NCBI GenBank assembly: GCA_019746225.1 | Contig: JAIESE010000042.1 | Coordinates: 18,154-82,153 of the forward strand | Reading direction: 5' to 3' | From: Alphaproteobacteria bacterium | Lineage (GTDB): Bacteria > Pseudomonadota > Alphaproteobacteria > Paracaedibacterales > VGCI01 | DNA length: 64,000 nt | The notes under the pieces: model-generated | The model's input: only the letters and a program-made list of their open reading frames with translations | Databases searched by the model: none | What the model was told of the DNA's origin: nothing | Shown here: piece by piece, positions 2,207 to 64,000 of the stretch | Layout: each line of letters begins with the position of its first letter | How positions within the stretch are numbered: the stretch's first letter is position 1 | Translations under genes and position numbers: made by a program

Positions 2207-2275
2207 AAAATTTTCTCCCATCATTGTTTGTATCAACCTTATACAAAGTCCCTTATTTCATTCACCTTATGGGTG

Positions 2276-2830: not shown

Positions 2831-2842
2831 CGATTCCTGGTT

Positions 2843-4042
2843 TTAAGGGTGAAATATCCTGTCGCCATCTGGAATGGGTCCATACCCAACAGCCTGGCGC
2901 TTTTCGTTAATGGTGAGAAAGTTGGCCGACGCGATCTTGGACCAAACAGCTTCTCGGCGGGCGCTTAAGGCTGGAATTTCATCGGTGTTATAACTGAGGC
3001 TGAGCTTTTCATCAAAGGCAGGGGCCAACCAAAGGTTAAATTCAGCCACAAAGAACTCAAGAAGGGGAATAATTGTATCCTCCCACAAATGAAACCGCGC
3101 TTCCTTGTAGTTGGCAAAGGTCGCATCTCCTGCCACCCCCACAAGCATAGGAGGCACGCCGTAGGCCTGGGATATTTCTCGGGCTGTGAGCTTCTTCCCC
3201 TCAATAAAATCAAGATCCTTCGGGGACAGCCCCATCTCCTTCCACTCACAATCCCCTTCCAGAACCAAGATTTGACCCGCATTCTTGTGTCCTGCATAAA
3301 CCTCTTTCAAATCTTGTCGAAGAGAATCACGCTGCTCATCACTCATCCCCCTGGAGTTGGGTGAGGGTCGAACAATCAAACCGCCACTGGGCCTACCCCC
3401 ATTTTGAAGAAGAGCCAGATTGTGGCCGGCGACCGCATTGTGCTGATCAATGCTTCTGGCTGCTGCCTCAATGGGGCTCATGCCGTACCAATCATTTAAA
3501 GGGTGAAAGTTCTTTAAATGAAGAATTGACGAATGACCTGTAACCGGATCACAAGGCAGGATTTTGTGTTGTCCAGCGACACTGTACTCATAAGCAGAAG
3601 GAATGCCTCCTGATCCGGGAATAATTTTCATACGATCTGGGCGCAATGGATGAAGCTCAACAGGGCGACCCTCATGGTCATGAACCGCTTCAATATACGT
3701 ATTACCGGAAAGAAGAAGAAAGCCCACCACGGATTCCATGAAGGCGGATCCAGCCTGGCGGGGGCTTGGGGCATTAAGGAGGGTCAGCAAGGGATGATGG
3801 GCGAGTTCCTCATCGTCCTTATACAATAACCAAGGAACGCTGCTAAGACCCCGCGCAATAAGATTGACACATCGGTAAACAATCACATTTTTCTGGTAAC
3901 CCTCAGCCGCCAAGGAATCATACCGACGGGGCGTCCAAACAGGATTACCAACAGTCCCACAAGCGACAAGCGGACCGACACTGCTTGATTTTGTGGATTG
4001 TTTACGTCCTTTTGAAAAGAATGATTTTAAATAATCTGGCAT
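2843..4042 (-). CDS. HK97-family phage/GTA portal protein
   Basis: A 399-residue portal protein, the dodecameric ring at the head vertex through which DNA is packaged. Diagnostic segments are present: YQKNVIVYRCVNLIARGLSS near residue 50, the SGNTYIEAV stretch, LALLQNGGRPSGGLIV in the middle, and LDFIEGKKLTAREISQAYGV followed by PPMLVG in the C-terminal third. It is the most upstream gene of the head module here. In the Rhodobacter GTA the large terminase gene comes just before it, but here the next gene upstream (4131-5381) is an unrelated secreted protein. The terminase must therefore lie elsewhere or be lost. Confidence 0.9.
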   Translation of the reverse strand: MPDYLKSFFSKGRKQSTKSSSVGPLVACGTVGNPVWTPRRYDSLAAEGYQKNVIVYRCVNLIARGLSSVPWLLYKDDEELAHHPLLTLLNAPSPRQAGSAFMESVVGFLLLSGNTYIEAVHDHEGRPVELHPLRPDRMKIIPGSGGIPSAYEYSVAGQHKILPCDPVTGHSSILHLKNFHPLNDWYGMSPIEAAARSIDQHNAVAGHNLALLQNGGRPSGGLIVRPSPNSRGMSDEQRDSLRQDLKEVYAGHKNAGQILVLEGDCEWKEMGLSPKDLDFIEGKKLTAREISQAYGVPPMLVGVAGDATFANYKEARFHLWEDTIIPLLEFFVAEFNLWLAPAFDEKLSLSYNTDEIPALSARREAVWSKIASANFLTINEKRQAVGYGPIPDGDRIFHP

Positions 4043-49811: not shown

Positions 49812-50525
49812 ATGACAACGCAAATCGGAACATTTATTCCCCTACAATCACATAACTCTGGTTGGGGTTCAAATAGATTAAATCATGTTGGAAGCTTTGG
49901 CATTCCTGGTTGGAACCCAAATTCAATCCTTGGACAAAATCTTTCTCACAACCCACAAAATTCAGCATTTCTTATAGCTCCAGCAGCTGGATTTTCTTGT
50001 GGAACTGCTCTTGGTGAAATTTCACAAAACATTTTGCCAAATTGCTCAACAGTAGCTTTCGTTCCAAGCCAGGGTCAAATTTCTGGTCCTTCTTTTGCTC
50101 CAGTAAGTGCCCCTCTTCATGGAATGAATCCAGCAGCTCTTCTTGGCTTAACACCTGCTCTTCAAGGTCTAAACCAAGGTTTGGCTGGTCTATCACATTC
50201 ATTTGCAACAGAATTGTCTGAAAACAATCAAGAGTACGTTGTTGCTGTAGATGTACCAGGAATTGAAATCCAAGATCTTGATATTTCATTGTCTGGGAAC
50301 ACAATTCATATTAATGGTGTTCGTAAAGAATGTCATGAAGCATCAACTTTAGCATACTCAGAAGTTGCTCGTGGATGCATTTCACGCGCGATTGCTGTAC
50401 CTTTTGATATAAGCCCAAGCAAAGCAATCAATACATCATTGGAAAATGGTGTTTTGAAAATCCGCATTGCAAAGGAAGCTCAGTCCGAAAGAAAATCAAC
50501 AGCTCGTAAAGTAAAAATTGGCTAA
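49812..50525 (+). CDS. Small heat-shock protein (Hsp20/alpha-crystallin) with long N-terminal extension
   Basis: A 237-residue protein. The alpha-crystallin domain occupies the last ~100 residues (NNQEYVVAVDVPGIEIQDLD, then ISLSGNTIHINGVRKE and ENGVLKIRIAKEA), complete with the G-V-L motif. The first ~130 residues are rich in Gly, Asn, Ser and Leu (SGWGSNRLNHVGSFGIPGWN) and are longer than in ordinary Hsp20. It is an ATP-independent holdase for unfolding proteins. A terminator-like hairpin follows. It directly borders the secreted-peptide cluster, convergent with it, but a link is unproven. Confidence 0.88.
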   Translation: MTTQIGTFIPLQSHNSGWGSNRLNHVGSFGIPGWNPNSILGQNLSHNPQNSAFLIAPAAGFSCGTALGEISQNILPNCSTVAFVPSQGQISGPSFAPVSAPLHGMNPAALLGLTPALQGLNQGLAGLSHSFATELSENNQEYVVAVDVPGIEIQDLDISLSGNTIHINGVRKECHEASTLAYSEVARGCISRAIAVPFDISPSKAINTSLENGVLKIRIAKEAQSERKSTARKVKIG

Positions 50526-50534
50526 TGATTAAAA

Positions 50535-50564
50535 TCCCATCCTGAATATCTGTTCAGGATGGGA
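50535..50564. terminator. Shared terminator of hsp20 and the peptide cluster
   Basis: A perfect 12-bp stem TCCCATCCTGAA and TTCAGGATGGGA around a 6-nt loop. A run of A before it gives TTTT on the minus strand, so it ends the peptide transcript best; it may also end the hsp20 transcript. Confidence 0.8.
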
Positions 50565-50626: not shown

Positions 50627-50830
50627 TTATGTCGTTATACCTTGTATCAAGCTCGCAGCTGAAGGTGCTAAGTTTCCTGCTACGACAACAACACCCACAT
50701 TCATATTCAACCGTGGTCCGTATAGTTTCAAGACTGTTACTGGCTTTACATTAATGTTAAATGTAACGGAAGTGCCACCAGATACGGTCGTCATATCTTC
50801 ATGACTTAATTCATTTGCTAGTTCTAACAT
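50627..50830 (-). CDS. Double-glycine-leader secreted peptide 1
   Basis: A 67-residue peptide with the leader MLELANELSHEDMTTVSGG and a core of ~48 residues (FNINVKPVTVLKLYGPRLNM, then hydrophobic VGVVVVAGNL and a Ser/Ala tail). The leader is the typical ABC-exporter leader cut after GG by C39 peptidases. The YGP motif is shared with peptide 5. A strong GGAGG site precedes the ATG. It is the last gene of the cluster on the minus strand. There is no Cys, so lanthionine or disulphide rings are not expected in this one. Confidence 0.82.
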   Translation of the reverse strand: MLELANELSHEDMTTVSGGTSVTFNINVKPVTVLKLYGPRLNMNVGVVVVAGNLAPSAASLIQGITT

Positions 50831-50862
50831 TTATTCCCTCCTTTATTTTATGTACGGAAAGT

Positions 50863-50891
50863 TCCCAGGGCTCTTCTCAGAGCACCTGGGA
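50863..50891 (-). terminator. Intercistronic hairpin after peptide 2
   Basis: TCCCAGG pairs with CCTGGGA and an inner GCTCT with AGAGC (loop TCTC). It lies 22 bp after the stop of the peptide 2 gene and 32 bp before the start of peptide 1. With no clear T-run it could be a weak terminator or a stabiliser of the upstream mRNA. Confidence 0.6.
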
Positions 50892-50913
50892 TTTTCTGCA
50901 CAAACCATATCAT

Positions 50914-51120
50914 TTAAAAGGCTGATGTATTTCCCATTGTGATACTTTGAGCTACTAAAACGTCAATTGAATTGCCTCCACCTATTAATTTATTGCGCTC
51001 TACTTCTACTTTTGAATAGTTCTTGTTACTAATATCAATTTTAGCTGTATATTTCTTGTTGGTGCCGCCAAAGAATCCACCTGAAATTTCTTCAAGAATC
51101 ATATCATTAAGTTCTAACAT
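50914..51120 (-). CDS. Double-glycine-leader secreted peptide 2
   Basis: A 68-residue peptide starting MLELNDMILEEISGG. The in-frame ATG at 51132 is rejected, because the GGAGG that would ribosome-bind overlaps that codon and is correctly placed for 51120. The core after GG is basic at first (TNKKYTAKIDISNKNYSKVE) and ends IDVLVAQSITMGNTSAF. It is a close paralogue of peptide 6, sharing leader, core layout and the end VLVAQSI(T/D)MGNTS(A/V)F. A promoter with a 16-bp spacer lies upstream at 51189-51216. No Cys. Confidence 0.85.
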   Translation of the reverse strand: MLELNDMILEEISGGFFGGTNKKYTAKIDISNKNYSKVEVERNKLIGGGNSIDVLVAQSITMGNTSAF

Positions 51121-51188
51121 CGGTTCCTCCATATATTTTCTATTTATGACTTGTGAATAAAACCATTTTACTCACACTTACGATTGGT

Positions 51189-51216
51189 AAAATAGGACGA
51201 TAATTGAAATAGTCAA
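51189..51216 (-). promoter_or_regulatory. Promoter of the peptide 2 gene
   Basis: On the minus strand TTGACT (51216-51211), 16 bp, TATTTT (51194-51189), then ACCAATCGTAAGTGTG. The same layout precedes peptide 6 (TTGACT-16-TATCTT) and peptide 3 (TTTACT-16-TATATT), with TCC directly before the -10 in all three and a GTAAG box downstream. Confidence 0.75.
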
Positions 51217-51419
51217 GAACTTAAATTAAATTTTTTTATTATTTAATATTTATATATACGCAAAAGACGTCTATTGATGTTTTTACGTTATATTGGAAGG
51301 AGAATTTAAAGAGGTATATTGCCGTTTTGTCTAAGAAAACGGATTTATAAAGAGAAAGTCAGAGCCCAATGTAACAATACGGCTATATCCCTTATACAAG
51401 GCAAGCCCCCTACCTAACT

Positions 51420-51602
51420 TCATGAGCTAGGCAAAGTCTGCGTGACGGAAACCGTAATGACACCACAACCTGTATTGCCCTGCTTAACAACATTACTTAT
51501 ATTGCAGTTAACAATACTCACAGAAACACTCCGACTTCTACCACCACCTATGACAGTCTCAAGGACTTCATCATCAAGTTCAATCATATTTATATTAAGC
51601 AT
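51420..51602 (-). CDS. Double-glycine-leader secreted peptide 3 (two Cys)
   Basis: A 60-residue peptide beginning MLNINMIELDDEVLETVIGG. The core of ~40 residues (GRSRSVSVSIVNCNISNVVK then QGNTGCGVITVSVTQTL) contains two Cys about 13 residues apart, which could form a disulphide; Ser and Thr are also abundant. The VxVTQ end recalls the VLVAQSI end of peptides 2 and 6. AGGAGG precedes the ATG ideally. It is preceded by its own promoter-like element (51668-51695). Confidence 0.82.
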   Translation of the reverse strand: MLNINMIELDDEVLETVIGGGRSRSVSVSIVNCNISNVVKQGNTGCGVITVSVTQTLPSS

Positions 51603-51903
51603 GAAAACCTCCTATATCTGATAAATGGATAACGTAATTTATTTACAGACTTACGTTTACATATTACAATATAGGATTCCCATTACAAAAGTAAATACTT
51701 TGTTAATATTTGGTTAATTATATATTAACTAACAACAACTCTTATTATTAGTCAATTTGTTTGACACGACCTGGCGTAGCCTTAAGGATTATCTTTTTAC
51801 AATAATACTTTAAGTAAAAATTTTTAAAGTCTTTATCGTATGAAAGATTCAAAATTTTTATTGAGTATTTTTCTTATATCAGATAACAATATACGCACAG
51901 TCC
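51603..51903. other. 301-bp intergenic region between peptide 4 and peptide 3
   Basis: No coding frame with a leader motif is found. It carries the peptide 3 promoter candidate near 51668-51695; the remainder is very AT-rich and I see nothing further. Confidence 0.5.
51668..51695 (-). promoter_or_regulatory. Promoter of the peptide 3 gene
   Basis: On the minus strand TTTACT (51695-51690), 16 bp, TATATT (51673-51668), preceded by TCC and followed by GTAATATGTAAACGTAAGT. It shares spacer length, the TCC before the -10 and the CGTAAGT box with the other peptide promoters. Confidence 0.7.
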
Positions 51904-52032
51904 TTAATGATTGTCTTTAATGACAATATTCGACATGTTACTGTTAGATATAACCACTTTATACTTTTTTAAGAAATTTGAGCTCCAACCGCCCGAAATC
52001 GCTTCTAGATCCATTTCATTTATTTCTACCAT
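51904..52032 (-). CDS. Double-glycine-leader peptide 4 (short or truncated)
   Basis: A 42-residue peptide starting MVEINEMDLEAISGGW with GGAG upstream. The frame stays open back to 52161, but that extension has no leader character. The core of only ~27 residues (SSNFLKKYKVVISNSNMSNI) corresponds to the first half of peptide 2 and 6 cores and lacks their VLVAQSI end. It may be a natural short form or a truncated copy. No hidden continuation is found in the other frames. Confidence 0.65.
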   Translation of the reverse strand: MVEINEMDLEAISGGWSSNFLKKYKVVISNSNMSNIVIKDNH

Positions 52033-52078
52033 AACACACTCCATTAAATTTATATTTTTTATCACCATATGAGGATGC

Positions 52079-52118
52079 ATGCCGATTTGAACCCCTAATC
52101 CTTGATCCAAATCGGCAT
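52079..52118 (-). terminator. Intercistronic hairpin after peptide 5
   Basis: A perfect 11-bp stem, ATGCCGATTTG with CAAATCGGCAT, around an 18-nt loop. It lies 81 bp after the stop of the peptide 5 gene and 46 bp before the start of peptide 4. A T-run is not adjacent, so termination, processing or mRNA protection are all possible. Confidence 0.65.
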
Positions 52119-52198
52119 CACGAGAGCTTGAAAAGCCTTTCAAATTACGGCTAAACAACACCTACGCATCAGGATGAATTACAATGAGCAATCAGAAA

Positions 52199-52456
52199 TT
52201 ACATTTCGATACTCTGGAACACCCCAATGTCAATAGATCCGTAAATTGTATTATTTGATATATTAATAATACTAATATTGTTATTTGTAATATAAGTAGG
52301 CCCATAAAAGTTATTTACACGAGTTGGTGTAGAGGCTACTGTTGTAGATCCACCTCCTCCACCGTAACCTGGTGAGTTATTATATGTATGGAACCCACCT
52401 CCAACAACACTTTCCATCTGCTTTTCACTTAATTCTGTATATAAATTTGTTTTCAT
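52199..52456 (-). CDS. Double-glycine-leader secreted peptide 5 (Gly/Asn-rich)
   Basis: An 85-residue peptide with the leader MKTNLYTELSEKQMESVVGG. The core of ~65 residues has a Gly run (SPGYGGGGGSTT), the motif NNFYGPTYITNNN and an Asn/Ile-rich end IYGSIDIGVFQSIEM. That end aligns with the SIDVLVAQSI end of peptides 2 and 6, tying it to the same family. AGGAGG precedes the ATG. Gly-rich tracts like this occur in microcin-type class II peptides, but the activity is unknown. Confidence 0.82.
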   Translation of the reverse strand: MKTNLYTELSEKQMESVVGGGFHTYNNSPGYGGGGGSTTVASTPTRVNNFYGPTYITNNNISIINISNNTIYGSIDIGVFQSIEM

Positions 52457-52553
52457 GATAATCCTCCTGCAATTATTAAGTTTTGTTCATAAAGTTTGCT
52501 TATTCACATTTGTTTTTTGTGCTTTTTTATATTTTGCTTATTTGGGAGACAGA

Positions 52554-52585
52554 CTTCCCAGACATAAGTAATCATGCCTGGGAAG
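52554..52585 (-). terminator. Hairpin after the peptide 6 gene
   Basis: CTTCCCAG (52554-52561) pairs with CTGGGAAG (52578-52585). It is 22 bp after the stop of peptide 6, at the same place and with the same CCCAG/CTGGG core as the hairpin following its paralogue peptide 2. Confidence 0.6.
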
Positions 52586-52606
52586 CTATTTGTGCTTTTT
52601 TATTAT

Positions 52607-52807
52607 TTAAAATACTGATGTATTTCCCATGTCGATGCTCTGAGCAACAAGAACGTCTATTGAGTTATTTAGACCAAAGAGTTTGTTTTTTTCAATTTCT
52701 ACAGTTGACTTGTTTGAATTTTTAATTTCAATTTTTCCCTTTTTGGTTGTACGTGAACCCCAACCACCAGATACTGCTTCAAGCATTGTTTCATTTAATT
52801 CCAACAT
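52607..52807 (-). CDS. Double-glycine-leader secreted peptide 6
   Basis: A 66-residue peptide starting MLELNETMLEAVSGGWGS. The ATG at 52819 is rejected for the same reason as in peptide 2: GGAGG overlaps it and fits 52807. The core (TTKKGKIEIKNSNKSTVEIE) ends SIDVLVAQSIDMGNTSVF. Peptides 2 and 6 clearly arose by duplication including the promoter, since the upstream 65 bp also align. It lies nearest to the exporter genes, about 230 bp downstream of the ABC gene at 53038. Confidence 0.85.
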   Translation of the reverse strand: MLELNETMLEAVSGGWGSRTTKKGKIEIKNSNKSTVEIEKNKLFGLNNSIDVLVAQSIDMGNTSVF

Positions 52808-52876
52808 CGTTTCCTCCATTTATTGCTATTTAATCCCAACGAACAAAAACCATTTTCATTCGCGCTTACAATTGGT

Positions 52877-52904
52877 AAGATAGGACGCTAAAACAAATAG
52901 TCAA
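52877..52904 (-). promoter_or_regulatory. Promoter of the peptide 6 gene
   Basis: On the minus strand TTGACT (52904-52899), 16 bp, TATCTT (52882-52877), then ACCAATTGTAAGCGCG. It is nearly the same as the promoter of peptide 2, showing both genes are controlled alike. Confidence 0.75.
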
Positions 52905-53037
52905 CAAGTTGTCTCAAATTTTTTTTAAATATTGACATAATTCTATTCAAACCCTTTGTTTGCCTGCAACATAATTTAGTTAAATTTTTATTAGATATAA
53001 ATGACGAAGGGAATTCTATACTTAAACTGCTATATCT

Positions 53038-55218
53038 CTATCCTTTTGGATACTCTGAAGGAAATAGTCTAACATCCTGTCCTTGCTCTAATTGGTAAGT
53101 TGCTGGATTTTGAGCATGCTCTACGATTTTTCCCTTCTCCAAAACGATCAGTCGATCCGCACTTCTAATTGTAGATGACCGGTGGGCAACCGTGATCCTT
53201 GTGATCGGAAGCTTCTTTAAGGTAGTTAGGATGATATCCTGGCTAAAGTTATCAAGGGCACTGGTTGCCTCATCTAGCAGGATCAGCGATATTGGTTTTG
53301 CTAAACACCGAGCCAGCACCAAGCGTTGACGTTGGCCCATAGAGAAAGTGCGCCCATCCCCCATAATAATGGTGTGCAAGCCCATCGGCATATTGACAAC
53401 ATCATCATGAATGGCAACAAGCTTTAAAAGGGACTCCATTTCCTGCTCTGTTATATTGGGATTGGAAGCACGCAAGTTATCATAGATACTTCCCGGCAAG
53501 AGTTGCGTATGCTGCAAGACCGTCGCAATTTGGCTTCGAGTTGTCGGCATATCAAGGTTTTGAATGGGAATATCGTCTATTAAGATTGTTCCCTTGTTAC
53601 ACTTTTCAAGGCCAAGCATCAGCTTGATGAGGGTCGACTTTCCAGCCCCTGAAGGGCCCACAATCGCCACCCACTCCCCAGGATTAATCGTAAAGCTCAC
53701 ATTATCAAGGGTGAGTGGCCCTGAAGCATCATAATGGAAGCTCACGTTTTGAAAGGTAATTTTGCCTGTCAGGAGCGTCTGGATCTTCTTTGGTCCATCT
53801 TGTTCTCCTCTTTCAAGTAGAATTGGCCTAACCCGTTCTAAATGCGGAATTAAATGGAGGAGACGATCTATAACCCCAAGCATCCCCATAAGAGAACCAA
53901 AGTATTGACCAACTGCCATCTGAAGGGCAATAAACTTACCAATACTTAACGCAGGCTTAAGGGGAGCCAAAGGCGTGTTCCCAATCATCAGAAAGTATAT
54001 AGACACCATAATAAAGAGAGGGAATATAAATTCTAATATATGATAAATTACCAAGATATATTGTGCCCCTAAAAAGTGGTTTGTTTTGCTAAACTCCATA
54101 TTTAACCACTTCTGAAAGACACGCTTTTGGGCATTCGATGTTTTAATTTTGACAACACTTCGTATAGCTTCAAAGAGGAAGCTCAGCAACTTGGCATTCG
54201 TCTGAGTAATAGATCTATGGTGGTTAATCATCCGACGGATCAGGTATACGCTCACAGCTCCAAAAGCGAGAGTCGCAAGAAATACAATAAGTCCCAGCAT
54301 TGGCATGTAATATGTTATGAAACCCAATATAACGACTGAAAAAACACCTTGAGAGAGGGCATTCATTGAAGATGTGGTTAGTTCTTTTTGAACCTGATCA
54401 ACCGCCACCAGTCGATCATGCAGATCCCCTAATCTGAAAATCTTAAAGAAGTTTAAAGGAAATGATAGCACACGGTTCCACAAAGCTGATTCAAGAAAGG
54501 CACTGCTCTTCACTTGAAACCGGATCATTGTAAAATTTTGCACAACTTTAAAGGCCATACCCCCGATAGCTGCCGCAAGAAGGCCCATAAAGACTTGATC
54601 AATCAAGCTATATTGACGTAATTTAACGACATCATCGAATATAACACCAGATAGGTACGGCTGTAATAGCATCAATAGCCCAATAGCCAGTTGTAAAAGG
54701 ATAAATCGCTTCCACTCAGCCCGGGTTTCCTTAACAGCCATTTTTGCCATGCTGATGATTGTTTTGGACTCTTGAGGCCATTTTTTGTAGAGGGCAAAGC
54801 CCATTACGTCCAAATGTTTCATCCGTTCGGCATCAAGTGGGTCATGCTTTCCAGACTCTGGTTCATAAATGTAGGGGAGTTCATCTTTATAATAAATTAG
54901 CCCTGGCATGGATGTTCCAGCCGTGAAAACAAGAAGAGGGTTAGATTCCGCCGATAAATTAAGGTTATGAACGTTCACTTCTCTCGTCATGAAGCCACAG
55001 GTATCCGCTATTCTATTAATGGCCTCCTCAATGGTTCTGGCAAACGGGTCCAAAGACGGCTTTGCGTGAATATTATTCATATAAGCAAGTGCTTCAAAAC
55101 AAGCCAAGAGGGCTTCCTCATAACTAAAGGCACCTAAGTTTGGAAACATGGCTTCCTTTAATTTGGGCGCCGCCTTAAACAACGGGTCACTAAATGGAAA
55201 GCCTTGTTGATCTTTCAT
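53038..55218 (-). CDS. NHLM-type bacteriocin exporter, ABC transporter without peptidase, altered signature motif
   Basis: A 726-residue membrane ABC protein, starting at the ATG at 55218 (AGAGG upstream; the frame opens at a TTG 21 nt earlier). The N-terminal ~150 residues resemble a C39-like domain without the catalytic residues. Five or six membrane helices follow (~165-440), then the nucleotide-binding domain: Walker A IVGPSGAGKSTLIKL and Walker B SLILLDEATSALD. The signature reads FSMGQRQRLVLAR instead of LSGGQ, so one ATP site of the pair is probably modified. It is the second ABC component of NHLM systems (TIGR03797-like), forming a heterodimer with the C39 ABC protein. Confidence 0.85.
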   Translation of the reverse strand: MKDQQGFPFSDPLFKAAPKLKEAMFPNLGAFSYEEALLACFEALAYMNNIHAKPSLDPFARTIEEAINRIADTCGFMTREVNVHNLNLSAESNPLLVFTAGTSMPGLIYYKDELPYIYEPESGKHDPLDAERMKHLDVMGFALYKKWPQESKTIISMAKMAVKETRAEWKRFILLQLAIGLLMLLQPYLSGVIFDDVVKLRQYSLIDQVFMGLLAAAIGGMAFKVVQNFTMIRFQVKSSAFLESALWNRVLSFPLNFFKIFRLGDLHDRLVAVDQVQKELTTSSMNALSQGVFSVVILGFITYYMPMLGLIVFLATLAFGAVSVYLIRRMINHHRSITQTNAKLLSFLFEAIRSVVKIKTSNAQKRVFQKWLNMEFSKTNHFLGAQYILVIYHILEFIFPLFIMVSIYFLMIGNTPLAPLKPALSIGKFIALQMAVGQYFGSLMGMLGVIDRLLHLIPHLERVRPILLERGEQDGPKKIQTLLTGKITFQNVSFHYDASGPLTLDNVSFTINPGEWVAIVGPSGAGKSTLIKLMLGLEKCNKGTILIDDIPIQNLDMPTTRSQIATVLQHTQLLPGSIYDNLRASNPNITEQEMESLLKLVAIHDDVVNMPMGLHTIIMGDGRTFSMGQRQRLVLARCLAKPISLILLDEATSALDNFSQDIILTTLKKLPITRITVAHRSSTIRSADRLIVLEKGKIVEHAQNPATYQLEQGQDVRLFPSEYPKG

Positions 55219-55256
55219 AACACAACCTCTTAATATCAATAATTATTTCGCCTGTC

Positions 55257-57860
55257 TCATTCTGTCTCTAGTTCCATAAGGTCCTTAAATATGCCTCGCT
55301 TCTTAGCAAGCTGCTTGGGTGTCCCACTTTGGCTTAAAGTTCCATTGTCAATCACATAGACCATATCCGAATTTTGAATTGTTGAAAGTCTATGGGCAAT
55401 GATCACGGTCGTAATATCCAGCTTACTCAACGATTCAAAGATATGTGATTCATTTGGTATATCCAGGGAACTTGTCGCTTCATCGAGAATTAACACATCC
55501 GTCTTTCGAAGAATTGTTCGGGCAATCTCTAAGCGTTGACGTTGTCCACCACTCAATGTCGCCCCATTTTCTCCAACGGGGCAGTATAACAGCCCCCGTG
55601 GCAACAACTCATCATATAAACCGACAAGTCTAAGAGACTCGACGAGCACGTCATCCTCAACATTCTTATTCCAAGACGTCAGATTGTCACGAATCGTGCC
55701 ATCAAATAGGTAGATATCTTGGTCAACAAGAGAGATTCTCTTGTTTCTGTGTTCAACATTTACTTCTTGGATGGGGTTGCCATCCCAAAGTATTTCTCCG
55801 GATGTAATAGGGTATAAGCCACAAATAATCTTTGAAATTGTTGATTTACCAGACCCACTAACCCCAACAAAGGCAACAGTCTTTCCACGGGGAATCACCA
55901 AGCTTAACTTATTGAAAATAGGCGCATCCAAAGGCGCATAGCCAAAAGTGACATCTTTCAGAACAATTTCCTTCTTTAAAGCCGGCAAGTCGATTTGAGG
56001 CGTAGAAACCTTACGCGTGGCCGTGGTCATTTCTTCCCATGTCTCGTGGCCTAAAATATCATTGAAGCGATTGATCGAAGCCTTGATCTTCTCAATTTTA
56101 CTCGAGAAATCCAAGAGAGTCATAACAGGACCGTCCAAATAGTTCGCTAAGATGATAAAGGCCATAAGCGTACCAATGGTGATCTCCTCCCCCATAATCA
56201 GATAGGTACCGCGGAAAAGCAAACCCACGGTCATCAGCGTCGCAAATCCCATCATCCATATACTTGTCCGTTGATCTACGAAGGCTACTTTTTGATGGTT
56301 ATTTAAAAGCGCATCATGGTTTGCTGCCCAATTTTTAAAGAACACACGTTCTAAATTATTGGCCTTTAAGGTATCAATCATCTCAAGGCCATTCATTGCA
56401 ACGCCTGAAACTTTACCAAATTGTTGCTGATACTCGATGTTTGTTTCTCGAATGCTATTGCGGCTGAAGTAAAAGACCAGGATCCTCAAAGCAATGAAAA
56501 TGAGCATAATCAAGAACATGGCTGGTGATAGTAAACTTAAAACAATCGTAAAAACCATTATGCCAAATATATTTGATAAGGCTCCCATAATCTCGAGAGA
56601 CAAAAGGTTTGACAATTCTTCCGCTGAGGAAAGACGGGACAAAATGTCACCGCTGAACCTTTGGTCAAAGAACCGAAGCGGCAGGTAAAAAAGCTTATGA
56701 ACAACGAGACTCTCAAGACTTAATTTAAAGTGGATGCTAAGGCGCACCAGCAACCGTTGGTGCAACGCCATAATAAACGATTGCAATGCAACACATCCAA
56801 CCAAAATTATAGTCATGGGAATAAGCCAATAGGCCAGATTTTTCACAAGAATATAGTCGATGAATACTTTGCTCGAAAAAGCAAGAACGAGACTCGGTAG
56901 GACCTGCAAAATGCTCAAAAGGCAAGCTGCAACAATCCCACTAAACCCATTCTCAAGGGAGGCAACAAGAAACTTTGCCAAAGCATTGGGTTGTGACTTT
57001 GTGGTGAACCCCTTGGCCGGCGAGAGGACAAGAATAATACCTGTAAAATTGCGATTAAACTCATCGTACGTAACGCGCCTGCGCCCCGTCGCTGGGTCGT
57101 TAATATAGAAATAATTTCCCTCACGCCCTTCAAAAACGACGAAATGGTCAAAATTCCAGTGGATAACCGCTGGAAGCGTGCAATTTTCTAAGTCGTCAAT
57201 ATTATGGACGCTATACCCTTTTGCCGTCATGTTGTATTGGCGGGCTGCGCGTACGATATGGCTCGCCTTACTTCCGTCGCGAGAGACGCCACAAGCGATA
57301 CGGGCCTCCTCCGCTGTTAATTCATGACGATAATAAGCCAAAATAATGGAAAAACAAATAGATCCACACTCAGTTGCTTCCATCTGTAGAAACGTCGGGG
57401 TGCGATGTATCTTATGTGACCTTAAGGCTCTGATGTAAAGGACAAGATCTGACCAATTTTGTTGCAGTTTCTCCTTCGTCTTTACTAACCCATTGTATAT
57501 CTTAGGTGTTCTTTTATGGAGGAAGGTAGTGATGACCGTTAGATACGGTTTCATGCGCTTGTGAAGCTTCTTATTCCATTTCCCTATGAGAGAATTAAAG
57601 GGTCGCAAGCCTCTGGCCACTTTCCTTTTTTGCTTTATAAGAAAAGCACCACAAGGTTTTAGTTTTTTGCCAACTTTCTTCATCACTTTAAATTGGAATG
57701 AAAAGTAAGGCCTCAGAAATTTAACAGCCTTCTTTTTCTCTTTCCCAAAGAACGATGGTAAATTAATAAGCCCTAGAATAAACTTCTTCTTCACCCTTTT
57801 AGAAAGAGACTTCCAGGAACTCTTAAATGACTTTGCTGACGATAGCTTCCATTGTTTCAT
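55257..57860 (-). CDS. NHLM-type peptidase-containing ABC exporter with basic N-terminal extension
   Basis: An 867-residue protein in three parts. Residues 1-150 are an unusual Lys/Arg-rich extension with repeated (K)FLRPYFSF-like elements. Residues ~150-280 are a C39 peptidase: Cys165 in QMEATECGSICFS, His239 in WNFDHFVVFEG and Asp255 in INDPATGR, so the leader-cutting triad is intact. Membrane helices (~300-560) and an ATPase (Walker A FVGVSGSGKSTI, LSGGQRQRLEIAR, VLILDEATSSLD) follow. NHLM exporters (TIGR03796-like) cut double-glycine leaders while exporting the peptide. The gene overlaps the adaptor gene by ATGA. The extension is not typical for the family. Confidence 0.9.
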   Translation of the reverse strand: MKQWKLSSAKSFKSSWKSLSKRVKKKFILGLINLPSFFGKEKKKAVKFLRPYFSFQFKVMKKVGKKLKPCGAFLIKQKRKVARGLRPFNSLIGKWNKKLHKRMKPYLTVITTFLHKRTPKIYNGLVKTKEKLQQNWSDLVLYIRALRSHKIHRTPTFLQMEATECGSICFSIILAYYRHELTAEEARIACGVSRDGSKASHIVRAARQYNMTAKGYSVHNIDDLENCTLPAVIHWNFDHFVVFEGREGNYFYINDPATGRRRVTYDEFNRNFTGIILVLSPAKGFTTKSQPNALAKFLVASLENGFSGIVAACLLSILQVLPSLVLAFSSKVFIDYILVKNLAYWLIPMTIILVGCVALQSFIMALHQRLLVRLSIHFKLSLESLVVHKLFYLPLRFFDQRFSGDILSRLSSAEELSNLLSLEIMGALSNIFGIMVFTIVLSLLSPAMFLIMLIFIALRILVFYFSRNSIRETNIEYQQQFGKVSGVAMNGLEMIDTLKANNLERVFFKNWAANHDALLNNHQKVAFVDQRTSIWMMGFATLMTVGLLFRGTYLIMGEEITIGTLMAFIILANYLDGPVMTLLDFSSKIEKIKASINRFNDILGHETWEEMTTATRKVSTPQIDLPALKKEIVLKDVTFGYAPLDAPIFNKLSLVIPRGKTVAFVGVSGSGKSTISKIICGLYPITSGEILWDGNPIQEVNVEHRNKRISLVDQDIYLFDGTIRDNLTSWNKNVEDDVLVESLRLVGLYDELLPRGLLYCPVGENGATLSGGQRQRLEIARTILRKTDVLILDEATSSLDIPNESHIFESLSKLDITTVIIAHRLSTIQNSDMVYVIDNGTLSQSGTPKQLAKKRGIFKDLMELETE

Positions 57861-59152
57861 GACGTCATCTCAATAGTTTTTTTGATCTCTGGAATGATAA
57901 TTTCAAATGGGGAACGGCGCTCCACAATCACACGGCCGTAAATCCATGTTCCAGGGGTTAGTTTAAATTGCTCAATCGTTGCTTTAGAGGCCTTTGTTGG
58001 ATCCTTTGTAATTTTAACACGGGCACTGATCGGAGGACTTGCTTCTGTGAATTTTTTAACCAACTCCTCATTTTGCAATGTCGACATCAAGCTTCGAACA
58101 GTTTCTGGATAAGGCGATACATCCATCACTTCTCCTTGAACATAACCAACATTCTCTTTTTCAAGGTGAGTTGGAATCATATAGACTTTCATGCCAACCT
58201 TAACCTCTTTTCCTTCAAGCGGATTTAGGTAAATCAACGCTTCAAGCTGATCTTCATCACCTTGACTGACGGTCAACAATGGCTCATTGGCTGGTACATT
58301 ATCTCTAACCTTATGGTAGATCCCGGTAACCCTCCCTGTTATAGGGCTTCTAATTGTCTTTGTTGTCTCTTGGCGTGTCTTCAAATCATTAAGACCCCGT
58401 TCTTCATCTCCAAGCTTCAAAGCGATCTCCCGCTCTTTTTGATCCCAGTTCTCTTGATCAACCATAAGTTCTTTTTGAAGCTGCACGAGTTTTTCCTTAT
58501 TTCTCGTGGCATCTTCCCTTAAGGCATTGAGCTTGCTTTCAGCATCCAGCACGTTTTGATGGCTTGCATAGCCCTTTTCCAACATGGCCCTTTGCTTTTG
58601 TAAATTGTGTTCCAAATGATTTCTGAATTCAACTTTTGAAGTGTCGCTGTCTTCAATGATTTTCTTTTGCTTCTCATAATTAATCTTTTTTTCTTTGATG
58701 CTGATCTCGGCCTCCTTTGTGAGATCTTCTTGCTTCTTTCTTAAATCAGCAATATAAGCAGACCGAACTTCAATGTTTTTAGAAATCTCTGGATTATCAA
58801 GCAAAACAAGCACTTGATCCTTTTCAACGTATTGGCCTGACTTCACGTTCAGCTCTTTAATTGTATTAAAACCCTCAGGTGAGTTAATGCTTTTAAAAAC
58901 ACCTTCCTTAGGTATCAAAATCCCTTGACCCTGAATCGTAATCGGAATGCTTCCCCAAAATAGCCACCCTAGACCCATCACCATGGCAACAACAAAGACA
59001 ATGATCAAAATCCAAGTGCCCGACCCAATCACTTTGATGAGCTTATTCACATCATTTGGAGTCGATATATATGCCAAGGCCTCATCGCGAAAAATGGGTT
59101 GCGATTCAACTAGTTGTTTTGAATGAGAATTTTCGTGTGAAGAATCTGTCAT
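57857..59152 (-). CDS. NHLM-type secretion adaptor (HlyD/membrane fusion protein)
   Basis: A 431-residue adaptor with a cytoplasmic N-terminus, one membrane helix (~48-68, LIIVFVVAMVMGLGWLFWG), a biotinyl-lipoyl domain half (GQGILIPKEGVFKSINSPEG), a long coiled-coil hairpin (~110-270), the second lipoyl half (TIRSPITGRVTGIYHKVRDN) and a beta-barrel C-terminal part. It should link the ABC proteins to an outer-membrane TolC-like channel, which is not in the window. It is the first gene of the exporter operon and overlaps the C39 ABC gene by 4 nt. Confidence 0.88.
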   Translation of the reverse strand: MTDSSHENSHSKQLVESQPIFRDEALAYISTPNDVNKLIKVIGSGTWILIIVFVVAMVMGLGWLFWGSIPITIQGQGILIPKEGVFKSINSPEGFNTIKELNVKSGQYVEKDQVLVLLDNPEISKNIEVRSAYIADLRKKQEDLTKEAEISIKEKKINYEKQKKIIEDSDTSKVEFRNHLEHNLQKQRAMLEKGYASHQNVLDAESKLNALREDATRNKEKLVQLQKELMVDQENWDQKEREIALKLGDEERGLNDLKTRQETTKTIRSPITGRVTGIYHKVRDNVPANEPLLTVSQGDEDQLEALIYLNPLEGKEVKVGMKVYMIPTHLEKENVGYVQGEVMDVSPYPETVRSLMSTLQNEELVKKFTEASPPISARVKITKDPTKASKATIEQFKLTPGTWIYGRVIVERRSPFEIIIPEIKKTIEMTS

Positions 59153-59491: not shown

Positions 59492-59870
59492 ATGGCTAAT
59501 ATTCTGAAAATCTTTTCAAACAGTCTCGTTCAAGGCACAGATGATGACGATTTCATCACGGTCCTTGCCGGAAACGCAACCATTGAGGGTAAGCTTGGGA
59601 ATGACAAGATCATTACCCTTATTGGTAACAACACCATTTATGGAGATCTGAGCGCGGTTACAGTTTCAGCTGTGGGGGGAATTAATACCCCTGTTACGGG
59701 TGGAAATATAACGGCGACTTATGGAAATGACTGTGTCTATGCGGGACTTGGCAATGACATCGTTGTGGGCGATGTGGGAAATATTCTTCTGCGAGCAAAA
59801 GCTGGAAGTACCATATCTGCACTTATCGCCAGCAACGCAAATGCCTTGTTGGAAAATGTTTCCCTCACCA
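59338..59870 (+). repeat. Direct repeat, left copy (RTX-like promoter and 5' gene)
   Basis: The promoter block and first ~380 bp of the first RTX-like gene recur at about 61749-62281 with only scattered changes. The stretch between the promoter block and the ribosome binding site is less alike. Confidence 0.85.
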
Positions 59871-61672
59871 TGGGCATAGATACTTTATACGGCGGATTGG
59901 GCGATGATAGCCTTTATGGCGATGTACGGACAATGAACCTTGAGTCACTTGCGGGCACGGCTAACAACCCCACTGCAGGTAACCAATCCGCTAACTCGCG
60001 CATTCAAGGTGTTACATTCCTAGGAGCTACTGACTATCTTTATGGAGGTAGTGGGAACGACGTTCTTCATGGCGACATTGGTAGCCTGAATTTACTGGCC
60101 CAAAGTAACGACGCATTAGGCGCTGACGACCAATCAATTGCTTTTATTAGAGCGCAGTCAGTTCCCCTAACAAACGTATTCACCATGGGCAACGATAGTC
60201 TTTATGGGGACAACGGAAACGATACCCTTTTTGGAGATATTGGCATTATCAGTTTAAAATCCCTTGGCGGTACAGTGAATGGTGGCATCTCTGCGCAATC
60301 ACAAATTTTAGGTAATACGTTCAACATGGGCAGCGATGAGCTTCATGGGGGAAATGAAGATGATAATATTTATGGAGACGTTGGTAAAGTTGCATTGTTT
60401 CTCCAAGGTGGAAATACATCCTCATCATTTTCAAGTAGTATAGCATTTATCAGATTTGTAAATTCTTCACTGCCCGTTCTTCTCGATATGGGTGATGATC
60501 ATCTTTATGGGGACAATGGCAATGACAAGCTGATTGGTGATATAGGAACTGTGACGATTAATAACACAGCCCGTTTAAATAGTGCAGCTGTTGTCGTAAC
60601 AAATTTTCTTATGGGAAATGATACCCTTGAGAGCGGTAATGGAGATGATTTTCTTTGGGGGGATGTGACATCAATTGAACTTATTGGGGATGGAGGAATA
60701 ACCGATGGAAATGGAAGTCCTTTTTCAGGTGCGATAACCGGATCCAGTTTCAGTATGGGGATTGATACCCTTAAAGGGGGCAGCGGAAATGATATCCTTT
60801 ATGGAGATGTAGGTTCATTTACATACAGCCTAAAATCAGGAACAATCACCAGCTCAAATACTGATCCTGATGCAGAAGCAGAGACAGGATCCGGAGCTGG
60901 ACCAATCAATGCTCTCATTTTAAATATGGGAGATGATACCTTACTCTCAGGAGAGAGTGGGAATGATGTGATTTATGGTGACGTGGGTGCAATGAGTCTC
61001 AATTTACAAGCAGGGAATAACTTCTCCATCGCATCAACCCTCAACTTTGCAGTAGCCTCTTTCATTTCAGATGGAATCTTCACTATGGGTAATGACACCC
61101 TTGATGGAGGGAATGGCAATGATCAGCTTTATGGAGATCTTGGATCCCTTTCAATATCTCTCATCAATGGTACAGGTCCAGGTTCGGGAACTGCTATTAA
61201 CAACACTATACTCCAATTTGGAAATGATACGCTTATTGGGGGATCAGGTAACGATATTCTTGTTGGAGACATTGCAAATCCCTTACAATTATTGCCATTT
61301 TTGAATGCGCCTCTAACTCCTACACCTCCGACACCTACAATTCCCAACCAACTCAATTTCGGAAATGATACGTTCGTGTTCACCCTTGGTGGAAACAATG
61401 GGAACGATATCATTAAGGACATGAATGTGGGAGCAACGAGTACCGCCACAACAACCGTTACCAATGTCATGGATACCCTCAAATTCACAGATGTCAAAAA
61501 CGTTGGTGCTCCGGTCCTAGATTACCATGATGTTGACGCGGCCGTCTCATTCTCCAATAGTGGCGGGCACCTCAAAATGTCCTTTGCTGGAGGCTCCGTG
61601 CTCTTTGAGAACATAAACTATGCAAATCAGCACAGTGTCCTCGACATCACGCCAAATGTCATCGTCGTTTGA
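59492..61672 (+). CDS. RTX-like repeat protein 1, probable type I secretion substrate
   Basis: A 726-residue acidic protein without a signal peptide. About eleven units share the core MGNDTLYGG(x)GNDxLYGDVG, each a pair of RTX nonapeptide-like turns separated by 30-45 variable residues rich in Ser, Ala, Asn and Thr, so each unit is about 55 residues. Calcium-binding beta-roll folding outside the cell is expected of RTX repeats. The last ~110 residues lack repeats (DTFVFTLGGNNGNDIIKDMN and onward) and end in a hydrophobic IVV, like a C-terminal type I signal. AGGAG precedes the ATG. It is divergent from the exporter operon and followed by a strong terminator. Confidence 0.85.
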   Translation: MANILKIFSNSLVQGTDDDDFITVLAGNATIEGKLGNDKIITLIGNNTIYGDLSAVTVSAVGGINTPVTGGNITATYGNDCVYAGLGNDIVVGDVGNILLRAKAGSTISALIASNANALLENVSLTMGIDTLYGGLGDDSLYGDVRTMNLESLAGTANNPTAGNQSANSRIQGVTFLGATDYLYGGSGNDVLHGDIGSLNLLAQSNDALGADDQSIAFIRAQSVPLTNVFTMGNDSLYGDNGNDTLFGDIGIISLKSLGGTVNGGISAQSQILGNTFNMGSDELHGGNEDDNIYGDVGKVALFLQGGNTSSSFSSSIAFIRFVNSSLPVLLDMGDDHLYGDNGNDKLIGDIGTVTINNTARLNSAAVVVTNFLMGNDTLESGNGDDFLWGDVTSIELIGDGGITDGNGSPFSGAITGSSFSMGIDTLKGGSGNDILYGDVGSFTYSLKSGTITSSNTDPDAEAETGSGAGPINALILNMGDDTLLSGESGNDVIYGDVGAMSLNLQAGNNFSIASTLNFAVASFISDGIFTMGNDTLDGGNGNDQLYGDLGSLSISLINGTGPGSGTAINNTILQFGNDTLIGGSGNDILVGDIANPLQLLPFLNAPLTPTPPTPTIPNQLNFGNDTFVFTLGGNNGNDIIKDMNVGATSTATTTVTNVMDTLKFTDVKNVGAPVLDYHDVDAAVSFSNSGGHLKMSFAGGSVLFENINYANQHSVLDITPNVIVV

Positions 61673-61903: not shown

Positions 61904-64000
61904 ATGGCTAATATTCTGAAAATCTTTTCAAACAGTCTCGTTCAAGGCACAGATGATGACGATTTCATCACGGTCCTTGCCGGAAACGCAACCATTGAGG
62001 GTAAGCTTGGGAATGACAAGATCATTACCCTTATCGGTAACAACACCATTTATGGGGATCTGAGCGCGGTTACAGTTTCAGCTGTGGGGGGAATTAATAC
62101 CCCTGTTACGGGTGGAAATATCACGGCAACTTATGGAAATGACTGTGTCTATGCGGGACTTGGCAATGACATCGTTGTGGGCGATGTGGGAGATATTCTT
62201 TTGCGAGCAAAAGCTGGAAGTACCACAGTTGCACTTTTCTCCGGTAACGCAGATGCCTTGTTGGAAAATGTTTTCCTCACCATGGGTATGGATACATTAT
62301 ACGGTGGATTGGGCAATGATAGTCTTTATGGCGACGTACGGACAATGACCCTAGAGAGCATGGCAGGCACAGCGAATGCTGGCTCCAATGCTGGAAACCA
62401 ATCAGCTAATGCCCGTATCCAGCTGGTTACTTTCACTGGAGGCGTTGACCATATTTATGGGGGCGATGGAAATGACAATCTTTACGGTGACATCGGCACC
62501 ATGACTCTCATAGTCCGATCTGGTAATTCATTAGGAACTTCTGATGCCGCCAACGCATTTATTCGCCCAATAAGTTTTGATGATTTAAATACATTCACCA
62601 TGGGCAATGACTTTCTCTACGGAGACAATGGAAATGATATCCTTTCTGGGGATATTGGCAATTTAACCCTAAAAGCTGGAGACTTGAATGGAATCTTAGT
62701 AAACCGGGGGGGTAATAATGTTGTTTTATCAGATGCCACTCAAATTCAAGCTGGAGATATCTTTATACCCGACGGGAGTGGAACCGGTATTGGGAATGCC
62801 CAAGCCAGAGGACAGATTATCGGCAATACGTTTAATATGGGCGCTGATGAGCTCCATGGCGGGAATGGAAATGATACCCTATATGGTGACATCTCTAACC
62901 AGTTAATATTTGCTCAAGGAGGTCAGACCCTTTCCACAGGCGCAAGTACGACTGCTTTCATTCAACTGATAGACATTAATCCTGATCTACAGCCCGATCT
63001 TTTCAATATGGGCATAGACCAGCTTTATGGAGATAATGGTAATGATAATCTCATTGGCGATATAGGAACACTAACAATTAAAGGGGTTGGGGGCTACGCT
63101 AACTCAGGAACAGCTACTAGCGGCATATCAAATGCTCAAATAACAGCCAATTTTAATATGGGAGGAAACTATCTTGATGGCGGACAGGGTAATGATTCCT
63201 TGTGGGGGAATGTAACCAATCTGCAAATTATTGGTGTCTCAGGAGCAATCAGTGGAACTGGGTTAGAAGTTGGCGCAGACGTTGGCTCCAAGATCTCCAT
63301 GGTCACGACTGATACCCTACTAGGGGGAGATGGAAATGACGTTCTCTACGGAGATATAGGTGATTTTACCTACAACATGGCTGTAGCAACAAATTCAACT
63401 ACTGCTAACCCAACATTTTTGTTCGCTGGGTCACAATCTGAATTTGCTGTTAGCCTTACCTTAGGAGCAGATAATCTATCAGGGGGGAATGGGGTTGATG
63501 TTCTTTATGGTGATATGGGAACATTGAGTCTCTCACTATCGTGTGGAACGAACTCTGGGTCTTCAACACACCAATTTTCTGCAGAATCTGATCTCCGCGA
63601 TGCAACTTTCATCATGGGGGCAGACACCCTAGATGGAGGAGCGTCTAATGATACTCTTTATGGAGATATAGGATCTTTCTCTGCTATCCTCACGCCTGGA
63701 AGTGGGGTCGGCACAACCCCCCTTATTAACAACACTTTAATACAGTTTGGGAATGATACCTTAATTGGAGGATCTGGGAATGACACTCTTATCGGGGATA
63801 TTGCCAACCCATCACAGCTTTCAAGCTTTATGAATGCCACCCTACTTTCCGCTGACTCCGATGGTAACGCACCAATTCCAAATCAAATTATCTTCGGCAA
63901 TGACACGTTCGTGTTCACCCTTTGTGGAAACAATGGGAACGATATCATTAAGGACATGAATGTGGGAGCAACGAGTACCGCCACAACAACCGTTACCAAT
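61904..64000 (+). CDS. RTX-like repeat protein 2, partial (continues past the window)
   Basis: The ATG at 61904 (AGGAG upstream) opens a frame with no stop for all 699 codons to the window end. I read it through and found it intact. The first ~125 codons are nearly identical to RTX-like protein 1. The middle has its own repeat units (for example MGNDFLYGDNGNDILSGDIG and MGADELHGGNGNDTLYGDIS) with longer inserts. The last ~95 visible bases again match gene 1 almost base for base, so about 65 codons probably remain outside. Two units have lost core positions (NGVDVLYGD and SNDTLYGD). Function as for gene 1. Confidence 0.87.
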   Translation, partial: MANILKIFSNSLVQGTDDDDFITVLAGNATIEGKLGNDKIITLIGNNTIYGDLSAVTVSAVGGINTPVTGGNITATYGNDCVYAGLGNDIVVGDVGDILLRAKAGSTTVALFSGNADALLENVFLTMGMDTLYGGLGNDSLYGDVRTMTLESMAGTANAGSNAGNQSANARIQLVTFTGGVDHIYGGDGNDNLYGDIGTMTLIVRSGNSLGTSDAANAFIRPISFDDLNTFTMGNDFLYGDNGNDILSGDIGNLTLKAGDLNGILVNRGGNNVVLSDATQIQAGDIFIPDGSGTGIGNAQARGQIIGNTFNMGADELHGGNGNDTLYGDISNQLIFAQGGQTLSTGASTTAFIQLIDINPDLQPDLFNMGIDQLYGDNGNDNLIGDIGTLTIKGVGGYANSGTATSGISNAQITANFNMGGNYLDGGQGNDSLWGNVTNLQIIGVSGAISGTGLEVGADVGSKISMVTTDTLLGGDGNDVLYGDIGDFTYNMAVATNSTTANPTFLFAGSQSEFAVSLTLGADNLSGGNGVDVLYGDMGTLSLSLSCGTNSGSSTHQFSAESDLRDATFIMGADTLDGGASNDTLYGDIGSFSAILTPGSGVGTTPLINNTLIQFGNDTLIGGSGNDTLIGDIANPSQLSSFMNATLLSADSDGNAPIPNQIIFGNDTFVFTLCGNNGNDIIKDMNVGATSTATTTVTN

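Follow-up and report, generated by a model that had tools for sequence, protein, structure and literature searches.

What does an exporter of the NHLM type carry when it stands beside a family of small peptides whose cores match no known family over its cut-off? This question is raised by a 64,000-nucleotide stretch of an alphaproteobacterial genome (contig JAIESE010000042.1 of assembly GCA_019746225.1, positions 18,154 to 82,153), referred to here as the window. In its open reading frame (ORF) list, six short minus-strand peptide genes, p1 to p6 (array 50627-52819), adjoin genes for an HlyD-type protein, an ATP-binding cassette (ABC) protein with a C39 peptidase domain and a second ABC protein, all of them where a preliminary description of this DNA had placed them. 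Judging from the sequences, we consider it likely that the peptides are exported by this machine, a peptidase-containing ABC transporter (PCAT) or type I system. By analogy with known systems, the leading account of their function is that unmodified peptides with double-glycine (GG) leaders leave the cell through an NHLM-like type I exporter and assemble as beta-rich surface or matrix material, a reading that we hold with somewhat less than even confidence.

The six genes encode precursors of a common design, and a GGAG or GGAGG stretch resembling a ribosome site can be read ahead of the likely start of each. For p1 (52607..52819) and p5 (50914..51132), which are 65% identical paralogues, the true starts are most likely the MLEL... 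codons at 52807 and 51120, four codons downstream of the annotated ATG, since that ATG merges into the Shine-Dalgarno GGAGG. This start at the next ATG would give products of 66 and 68 residues with cores of 51 and 53, and in the upstream-region alignment it matches the relatives in G001. (G001, G002, G003 and G004 are genomes of the same genus, G014 belongs to another family of the order, and G000 is the 97%-complete genome of the window itself.) The p2 gene (52199..52456) encodes a core of 65 residues with a Gly-rich spacer, p4 (51420..51602) a core of 40 residues with two Cys, and p6 (50627..50830) a core of 48 residues. The short third peptide, p3 (51904..52032, core of 27 residues), begins at about 52032 (MVEINEM...) and not at the mechanical 52161. 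Searching the 2.38-Mb G000 assembly with a six-peptide profile returned the same six and nothing else at E <= 1.

The leaders are 15-20 residues long and mostly acidic. The preliminary description had proposed a shared leader motif; a slightly widened version of it, our strict pattern, finds five ORFs in the 64-kb window, all within the array, and none in 30 windows simulated by a first-order Markov model. The motif thus holds for five of the peptides but misses p6, which has Thr in place of Glu. A looser pattern recovers all six together with two ORFs elsewhere (simulated windows: mean 2.0, maximum 5). Published PCAT leaders have hydrophobic residues at -12, -7 and -4, the GG, and also Glu at -8 (PMC6959990). 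All six window leaders have the three hydrophobic positions and the GG, and none has Glu at -8, where p3 and p6 carry Asp. The p2 leader lies exactly at the cut-off of the bacteriocin leader signature TIGR01847 (15.7 vs 15.7 bits) and is the sole peptide match to reach a curated cut-off. The remaining Pfam and NCBIfam matches of the peptides all fall below theirs, including a ComC leader match of p4 (E 0.12), and no NHLP or Nif11 model is among the matches of the six. The idea of NHLM-type GG-leader peptides therefore stands as far as GG leaders beside the exporter are concerned, but these short leaders differ from the long NHLP/Nif11 leaders that gave NHLM exporters their name.

The exporter genes also lie on the minus strand. 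An HlyD-type membrane-fusion protein of 431 residues (57857..59152) overlaps by 4 bases the gene for ABC1 (55257..57860, 867 residues), which combines a C39 peptidase, a permease and an ATPase, and ABC2 (53038..55239) is a second permease/ATPase without a peptidase. Comparison with a homologue indicates that ABC2 probably starts at the ATG near 55218, not at the TTG at 55239. HlyD scores 199.6 bits on TIGR03794, above the cut-off of 156.2. The best family of ABC1 is TIGR03796, at 695.8 bits against a cut-off of 853.3 and with a 377-bit lead over the next family (318.8); that of ABC2 is TIGR03797, at 530.3 bits against 709.4 and with a 225-bit lead (next family 304.7). The TIGR03796 cut-off is passed by none of 14 control genomes, nor by the window's own genome. 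The NHLM assignment made earlier thus holds by cut-off for HlyD and by best match for the two ABC proteins, which fail the curated cut-offs. We therefore call the set NHLM-like and, because the two proteins give best-family scores yet remain under the cut-offs, regard them from these scores as divergent NHLM-family members or sister proteins. In ABC1 the C39 domain (Peptidase_C39, E 8e-32) retains the motifs for Cys, His and Asp (ATECG, FDHFVV and NDPA), so the catalytic residues are intact, as had been stated. Matches to OEP, the TolC-type channel domain, were found in G000, G001 and G004 by a genome domain search and not in G014, a genome only 70% complete.

ABC1 carries 158 residues ahead of its C39 motif, and this stretch is strongly basic (44 Lys+Arg vs 3 Asp+Glu). 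We surveyed 16 sources for such an extension and matched the C39 motif in 11. The corresponding stretch has 170 residues in G001 (40/5), 109 in G002 (21/5) and 84 in G004 (24/2), and just 12-37 residues in five other loci (L043, L046, L091, L092 and L093). It has 80 residues (13/4) in L040, which is a second system of G004, and 82 (12/8) in L044, whose start is uncertain in our reading. The C39-ABC open frame of G014, a genome 70% complete, begins right at the C39 motif. By this comparison, a basic N-terminal extension of 84-170 residues on the C39 transporter is a trait of the genus, newly noted here. We would guess that it anchors the complex or gathers the acidic leaders.

Among 97 genomes, HlyD matches at E <= 0.001 occur in 20, own genome included; the only close relatives are in G001 (70% identity), G002 (70%), G004 (53%) and G014 (48%), and at the same threshold there is no match in G003, a genome of the same genus. 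The G002 HlyD (L038 14033-15293) is split over two overlapping frames and that of G014 (L041 3139-4365) has one inner TGA; decay or assembly error is possible in both. In a sample of 385 genomes from the class, HlyD has matches at E <= 1e-20 in 18, own included, with the others at no more than 31% identity; this sample holds part of the order only, and its matches do not include G001, G002, G004 or G014. Scanning the named genomes with ABC2 gave six loci, one a close relative (VGEY01000020.1) and five of them distant ABC matches.

A profile of 15 peptides (the six from the window and nine related ones), run over 43 genomes of the order, hits five of them at E <= 0.01: six matches in G000, five in G001, two in G014, four in G004 (two by the exporter and two weak ones elsewhere) and a single weak one in G002, on a contig other than the exporter's. 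Leader peptides adjoin the exporter in four of the five close loci, namely those of the window, G001, G004 and G014. G004 also has a second, diverged HlyD/C39-ABC/ABC set (L040 3055-9399) with its own 115-residue GG precursor, and stand-alone GG-leader ORFs with a different core type lie off the exporter contigs of G002 (L055 1296-1529) and G004 (L065 1339-1551). In a scan of 16 other loci of the class, long-leader GG precursors occur in L092, L093, L099 and L044, and at L045 a GG precursor has 33 residues ahead of the motif; a further long-leader precursor is at L043. By eye, none of these loci has cores resembling those of the window. Among the publication titles listed none matched the peptide family, which is not proof of unpublished status, and passages of a Holospora paper (PMC5911502) contain no precedent for the peptide set.

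Are the cores related to one another? When each pair was compared with 300 shuffles, none of the shuffles reached the score of p2 with G014a (z 7.7), p6 with G001e (z 7.1) or G001d with G014a (z 5.2); p2 with G001d was weaker (z 3.5, 1/300), and p3 with p1 gave z 8.2. These values suggest three core types: A (p2, G014a and G001d), B (p6 and G001e) and C (p1, p5 and p3 with G001a, G001b and G001c). The typing is not clean, with p1-p2 (z 9.5) and G001c-G001e (z 7.1) crossing types, the window and G001 sets of type C only weakly linked (p5-G001a, z 2.8), and p4 and G014b lacking a firm placement. Both G014 cores outscore all 200 shuffles in a profile built from the G001 cores. At the codon level, 65% of 66 codons agree between p1 and p5, and the ratio of nonsynonymous to synonymous change (dN/dS, NG86) is 0.20; the values are 76% and 0.11 for G001a-G001b and 56% and 0.19 for G001b-G001c, all of these ratios being rough since dS is 1.5-2.1. 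By these estimates the three paralogue pairs are under purifying selection. Changes in the p1-p5 and G001a-G001b pairs fall mostly at third codon positions, and the peptide genes are therefore real, selected genes.

The composition of the cores is distinctive. In the 13 cores of the window, G001 and G014 (27-65 residues; the five-residue cores of G004 were left out), Asn makes up 15.6%, Ser 11.0%, Gly 10.5%, Ile 10.2%, Thr 9.6% and Val 8.2%, with Asp and Glu together at 2.3% and Cys at 0.6%; the preliminary description of the cores as Asn/Ser/Ile/Val-rich and mostly without Cys was accurate. We ranked the six window cores against 1290 segments of 48 residues taken from 43 mechanical ORFs: they fall at the 95th-100th percentile for Asn+Ser+Thr+Gly+Ile+Val+Gln and at the 80th-100th for Asn+Ser alone. 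Gln stands near the C-terminus in 12 of the 13 cores, read by eye, the exception being the short p3. Taken as sequences, the cores suggest beta-structure.

The peptides are probably unmodified, because neither LANC_like nor YcaO is matched in G000, G001, G004 or G014 and SPASM is unmatched in three of these four genomes, G000 included (for G000, at a threshold of E <= 0.001); the one SPASM match, in G001, lies on a contig other than the exporter's. No modifying enzyme was recognised by eye near the locus, in agreement with the earlier suggestion, the genome-wide search having covered LANC_like, YcaO and SPASM only.

How might expression of the array be organised? An alignment of nine upstream regions (p1, p4, p5, four from G001 and two from G004) shows TT(G/T)A in the -35 position and, starting at column 22, CTA; the hexamers that follow, which resemble TAT(C/T)TT, are thus set off by a spacer of 16 bases. 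By eye, G014b fits as well. The promoter-like elements in the window, all on the minus strand, are TTGACT-N16-TATCTT before p1 (52877..52904) and TTGACT-N16-TATTTT before p5 (51189..51216), both from the alignment and a pattern match, and TTTACT-N16-TATATT before p4 (51668..51695), from a pattern match with 3 mismatches. We searched for the consensus with up to 3 mismatches, using the reversed pattern as a control. G000 has four sites, of which three precede p1, p4 and p5 (control 1); G001 also has four, three of them ahead of peptide genes (control 1); G003 has two (control 0), and G002 (control 1), G004 and G014 have none. Of the additional sites (C15 of G000, C1 of G001, C16 and C67 of G003), those at C15 and C16 were followed, and no GG peptide lies downstream of either.

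Hairpins accompany two of these elements. The 5' untranslated regions (5'-UTRs) of p1 (52840..52862, minus) and p5 (51153..51175, minus) each contain a stem of 10 pairs, or 11 with a flanking pair, compared with at most 9 in 44 control upstream regions of mechanical ORFs when loops of 3-8 are allowed. Read by hand, five of the ten pairs differ on both sides between the two hairpins with pairing kept. Stems ahead of p2, p3, p4 and p6 are ordinary by the same test (5-6 pairs); a predicted fold gives an inverted repeat before p3 (52079..52118, minus) with 15 pairs and a 10-base loop, outside the loop range of the test. Folding 15 whole upstream regions gave no strong z-scores (the lowest were p6 at -2.13 and G014b at -1.98, with p1 at -1.34 and p5 at -0.72); the case for the hairpins is therefore made by stem length and by the paired changes in p1 and p5. 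Between genes, there is a hairpin without a T run between p1 and p2 (52554..52585, minus), a G+C-rich one, also predicted by folding, between p5 and p6 (50863..50891, minus), and another between G014b and G014a; a terminator-like inverted repeat with a T run follows p6 (50531..50562, minus). We read the three pairs p1-p2, p5-p6 and G014b-G014a as a putative arrangement of promoter, first peptide, a hairpin that would limit read-through or guard the upstream message, and second peptide. The promoter sites of the peptide genes and the 5'-UTR hairpins are newly noted here.

These observations can be joined in a working model. Each peptide would be made as a precursor whose short, mostly acidic leader is bound by the C39 domain of ABC1 and cut after the GG. 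ABC1, probably assisted by ABC2, HlyD and a TolC-type channel whose gene lies elsewhere, would then carry the core of 27-65 residues through both membranes in a single step. Once outside, the cores, rich in Asn, Ser, Gly, Ile, Thr and Val, would most likely self-assemble into a surface or matrix material that is beta-rich (amyloid-like) and built from several related types of subunit, and the paired gene arrangement would favour production of the first subunit over the second. A stronger form of the model, which we find doubtful, is one-step amyloid secretion: an NHLM-like exporter turned fibre-assembly machine would export related beta-rich subunits A, B and C in a ratio set by promoters and by 5' and intercistronic hairpins, with the basic C39 extension gathering leaders or providing an anchor.

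Several results weigh against assembly into beta-rich material. A profile of the window cores scores only one of seven foreign cores over all shuffles, and the reverse profile, built from the foreign cores, scores none of the six window cores over all 200 (shuffles exceeding: p4 2, p2 4, p6 7, p3 9, p1 175 and p5 112). Hydropathy alternation is weak, with the summed value reached by 76 of 2000 shuffles and one core of 13 below 0.05 alone; the beta-like moment falls below 0.05 in 2/13 cores and the helix-like moment in 1/13. The AlphaFold model of p1, from the six-row window alignment, is poor (pLDDT 57) and has a leader helix and no strands. No core matches a PDB sequence up to E 10 or passes any Pfam or NCBIfam cut-off, as befits the earlier remark that the cores were not recognised as a described bacteriocin class, and no Pfam match over cut-off was obtained with any of the 15 peptides. 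As these 15 peptides include no Pfam curlin match, membership of the curlin family was rejected and what remains is a likeness. The paired arrangement is not a fixed unit either: the G001 c-d pair, an A-type gene and its neighbour, has no clear hairpin, and the B-type G001e has its own promoter site. The leader motif, found in the homologous loci of G001, G004 and G014, is absent beside the G002 exporter, as far as leader patterns can show. Finally, the G004 precursors (L039 5885-5962 and 6227-6301) have cores of five residues only, GLKGW and GIKGF, and these could not be the same material as the window cores.

Other functions must be weighed on the same evidence. The locus has the gene grammar of class II microcins, its leaders match bacteriocin-leader models (mostly weakly, with p2 at the TIGR01847 cut-off), and the Cdz proteins provide an alphaproteobacterial precedent (PMC5380434). 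It could thus encode a set of several unmodified bacteriocins or microcins whose cores kill competitors, perhaps by contact and from the cell surface as Cdz does. We regard this as rather unlikely. No immunity-like gene was recognised in the array by eye from the ORF list; the single hydrophobic extra ORF (52483-52725, plus strand, TTG start) is antisense to p1 and has no Pfam match. Some cores are kept across species and families, whereas bacteriocin cores are usually variable. No glycine zipper was seen in the cores by eye, and a helix moment below 0.05 is confined to one core. The peptides might instead be ribosomally synthesized and post-translationally modified peptides (RiPPs) that are matured by an enzyme encoded away from the locus, given that NHLM exporters have been described with modified NHLP/Nif11 peptides (PMC2887384) and that the enzyme search was confined to three domains and gave the one SPASM match in G001. 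The otherwise negative enzyme search and the scarcity of Cys in the cores make this improbable, the least favoured of the readings considered here.

The G004 precursors bear on another possibility, that short cores freed by GG cleavage act as ComC-like pheromones: they lie beside the same exporter type and give ComC leader matches (E 0.019 and 0.07) which, like that of p4, are weak and below the cut-off. An inverted repeat follows each of the two precursors. The sequence past both stops, however, is common to the two copies, which may mean that their cores are decayed longer ones; cores of 27-65 residues in the window, G001 and G014 also speak against signalling, and no receptor or kinase gene was recognised by eye next to the array. 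We consider signalling very unlikely. That the peptides are exported into or onto a host, where they would serve a bacterium associated with protists or animals as effectors or adhesins, is unlikely too. Genomes of the order of about 1.1-2.8 Mb, some of them incomplete, would suit a host-associated lineage, and RTX-repeat genes lie next door, but no eukaryote-like domain scores over cut-off in the six peptides. Export of unmodified peptides for assembly at the cell surface or in a matrix accordingly stays our leading, tentative account.

The genes around the locus are described for completeness. Two tandem RTX-repeat genes (HemolysinCabind) lie on the plus strand at 59492-61672 and 61904-64000, the second continuing past the window end, and their first ~95 residues are nearly identical. 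An Hsp20 gene (49812-50525; HSP20 58.6 bits over residues 136-236, after a long N-terminal stretch) is convergent with p6. Its G001 counterpart (L037 18603-19376) is 51% identical, occupies the same place and has an Asn/Gln-rich N-terminal stretch; because MsrB lies beyond Hsp20 in G001 too, this position may be plain synteny. Prophage head genes at 1016-4042 (Phage_capsid, prohead protease S78 and Phage_portal) all score over Pfam cut-offs.

An NHLM exporter is usually taken as a sign of modified antibiotics. A set behind one that is conserved and apparently unmodified would show that this exporter type can also serve peptides with a structural or social role, and genome-mining programs would then have grounds not to label every such locus a bacteriocin. 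One-step amyloid secretion, if true, would be a surface-fibre route separate from curli, Fap and chaperone-usher systems. From an uncultured alphaproteobacterial lineage, the locus also offers a compact group of peptides that are candidates for self-assembly.

How, then, does the locus compare with known systems? Haft et al. tied TIGR03794, TIGR03796 and TIGR03797 to NHLP precursors, with Nif11 precursors beside them (PMC2887384); NHLP-type exporters have been reported in Legionella (PMC6959600), and clusters of C39-ABC and HlyD genes are widespread in cyanobacteria (PMC3140520). The window shares with the NHLM/NHLP systems the one-strand order of HlyD, C39-ABC and ABC genes and the best family match for each, but its ABC proteins score below the cut-offs, it has no long NHLP/Nif11 leader and no modifying enzyme that we could find, and its C39 transporter bears the basic extension. 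With class II microcins of the colicin V type it shares the GG leader, the C39-ABC and HlyD proteins and a probably unmodified core; it differs in its second ABC protein, in the lack of a recognised immunity gene and in having several paralogous Asn/Ser-rich cores. The p2 and p4 leaders also match the CTB family bacteriocin model NF038167 weakly (17.7 and 13.5 bits vs a cut-off of 32). In the gonococcal nap island, GG peptides occur without killing of competitors (PMC11798529). Caulobacter Cdz consists of proteins of 86 and 84 residues that leave by type I export, form surface aggregates and kill on contact (PMC5380434). Likened by description and not by sequence, it resembles our set in its small leader-bearing proteins, export route, alphaproteobacterial host and lack of an obvious modifying enzyme, but has glycine-zipper cores, the cdzI immunity gene and a pair of proteins in place of six. 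The nearest working model is the EbfG/PteB system of Synechococcus elongatus, in which the GG proteins EbfG1-4 need the peptidase Cys of PteB for efficient secretion and enable biofilm formation (PMC4997328), and EbfG1-3 behave as amyloids (PMC9981879). That system belongs to another phylum, is again likened by description and not by sequence, and has had its amyloid nature tested where ours is proposed; both combine several small GG proteins with a C39 transporter.

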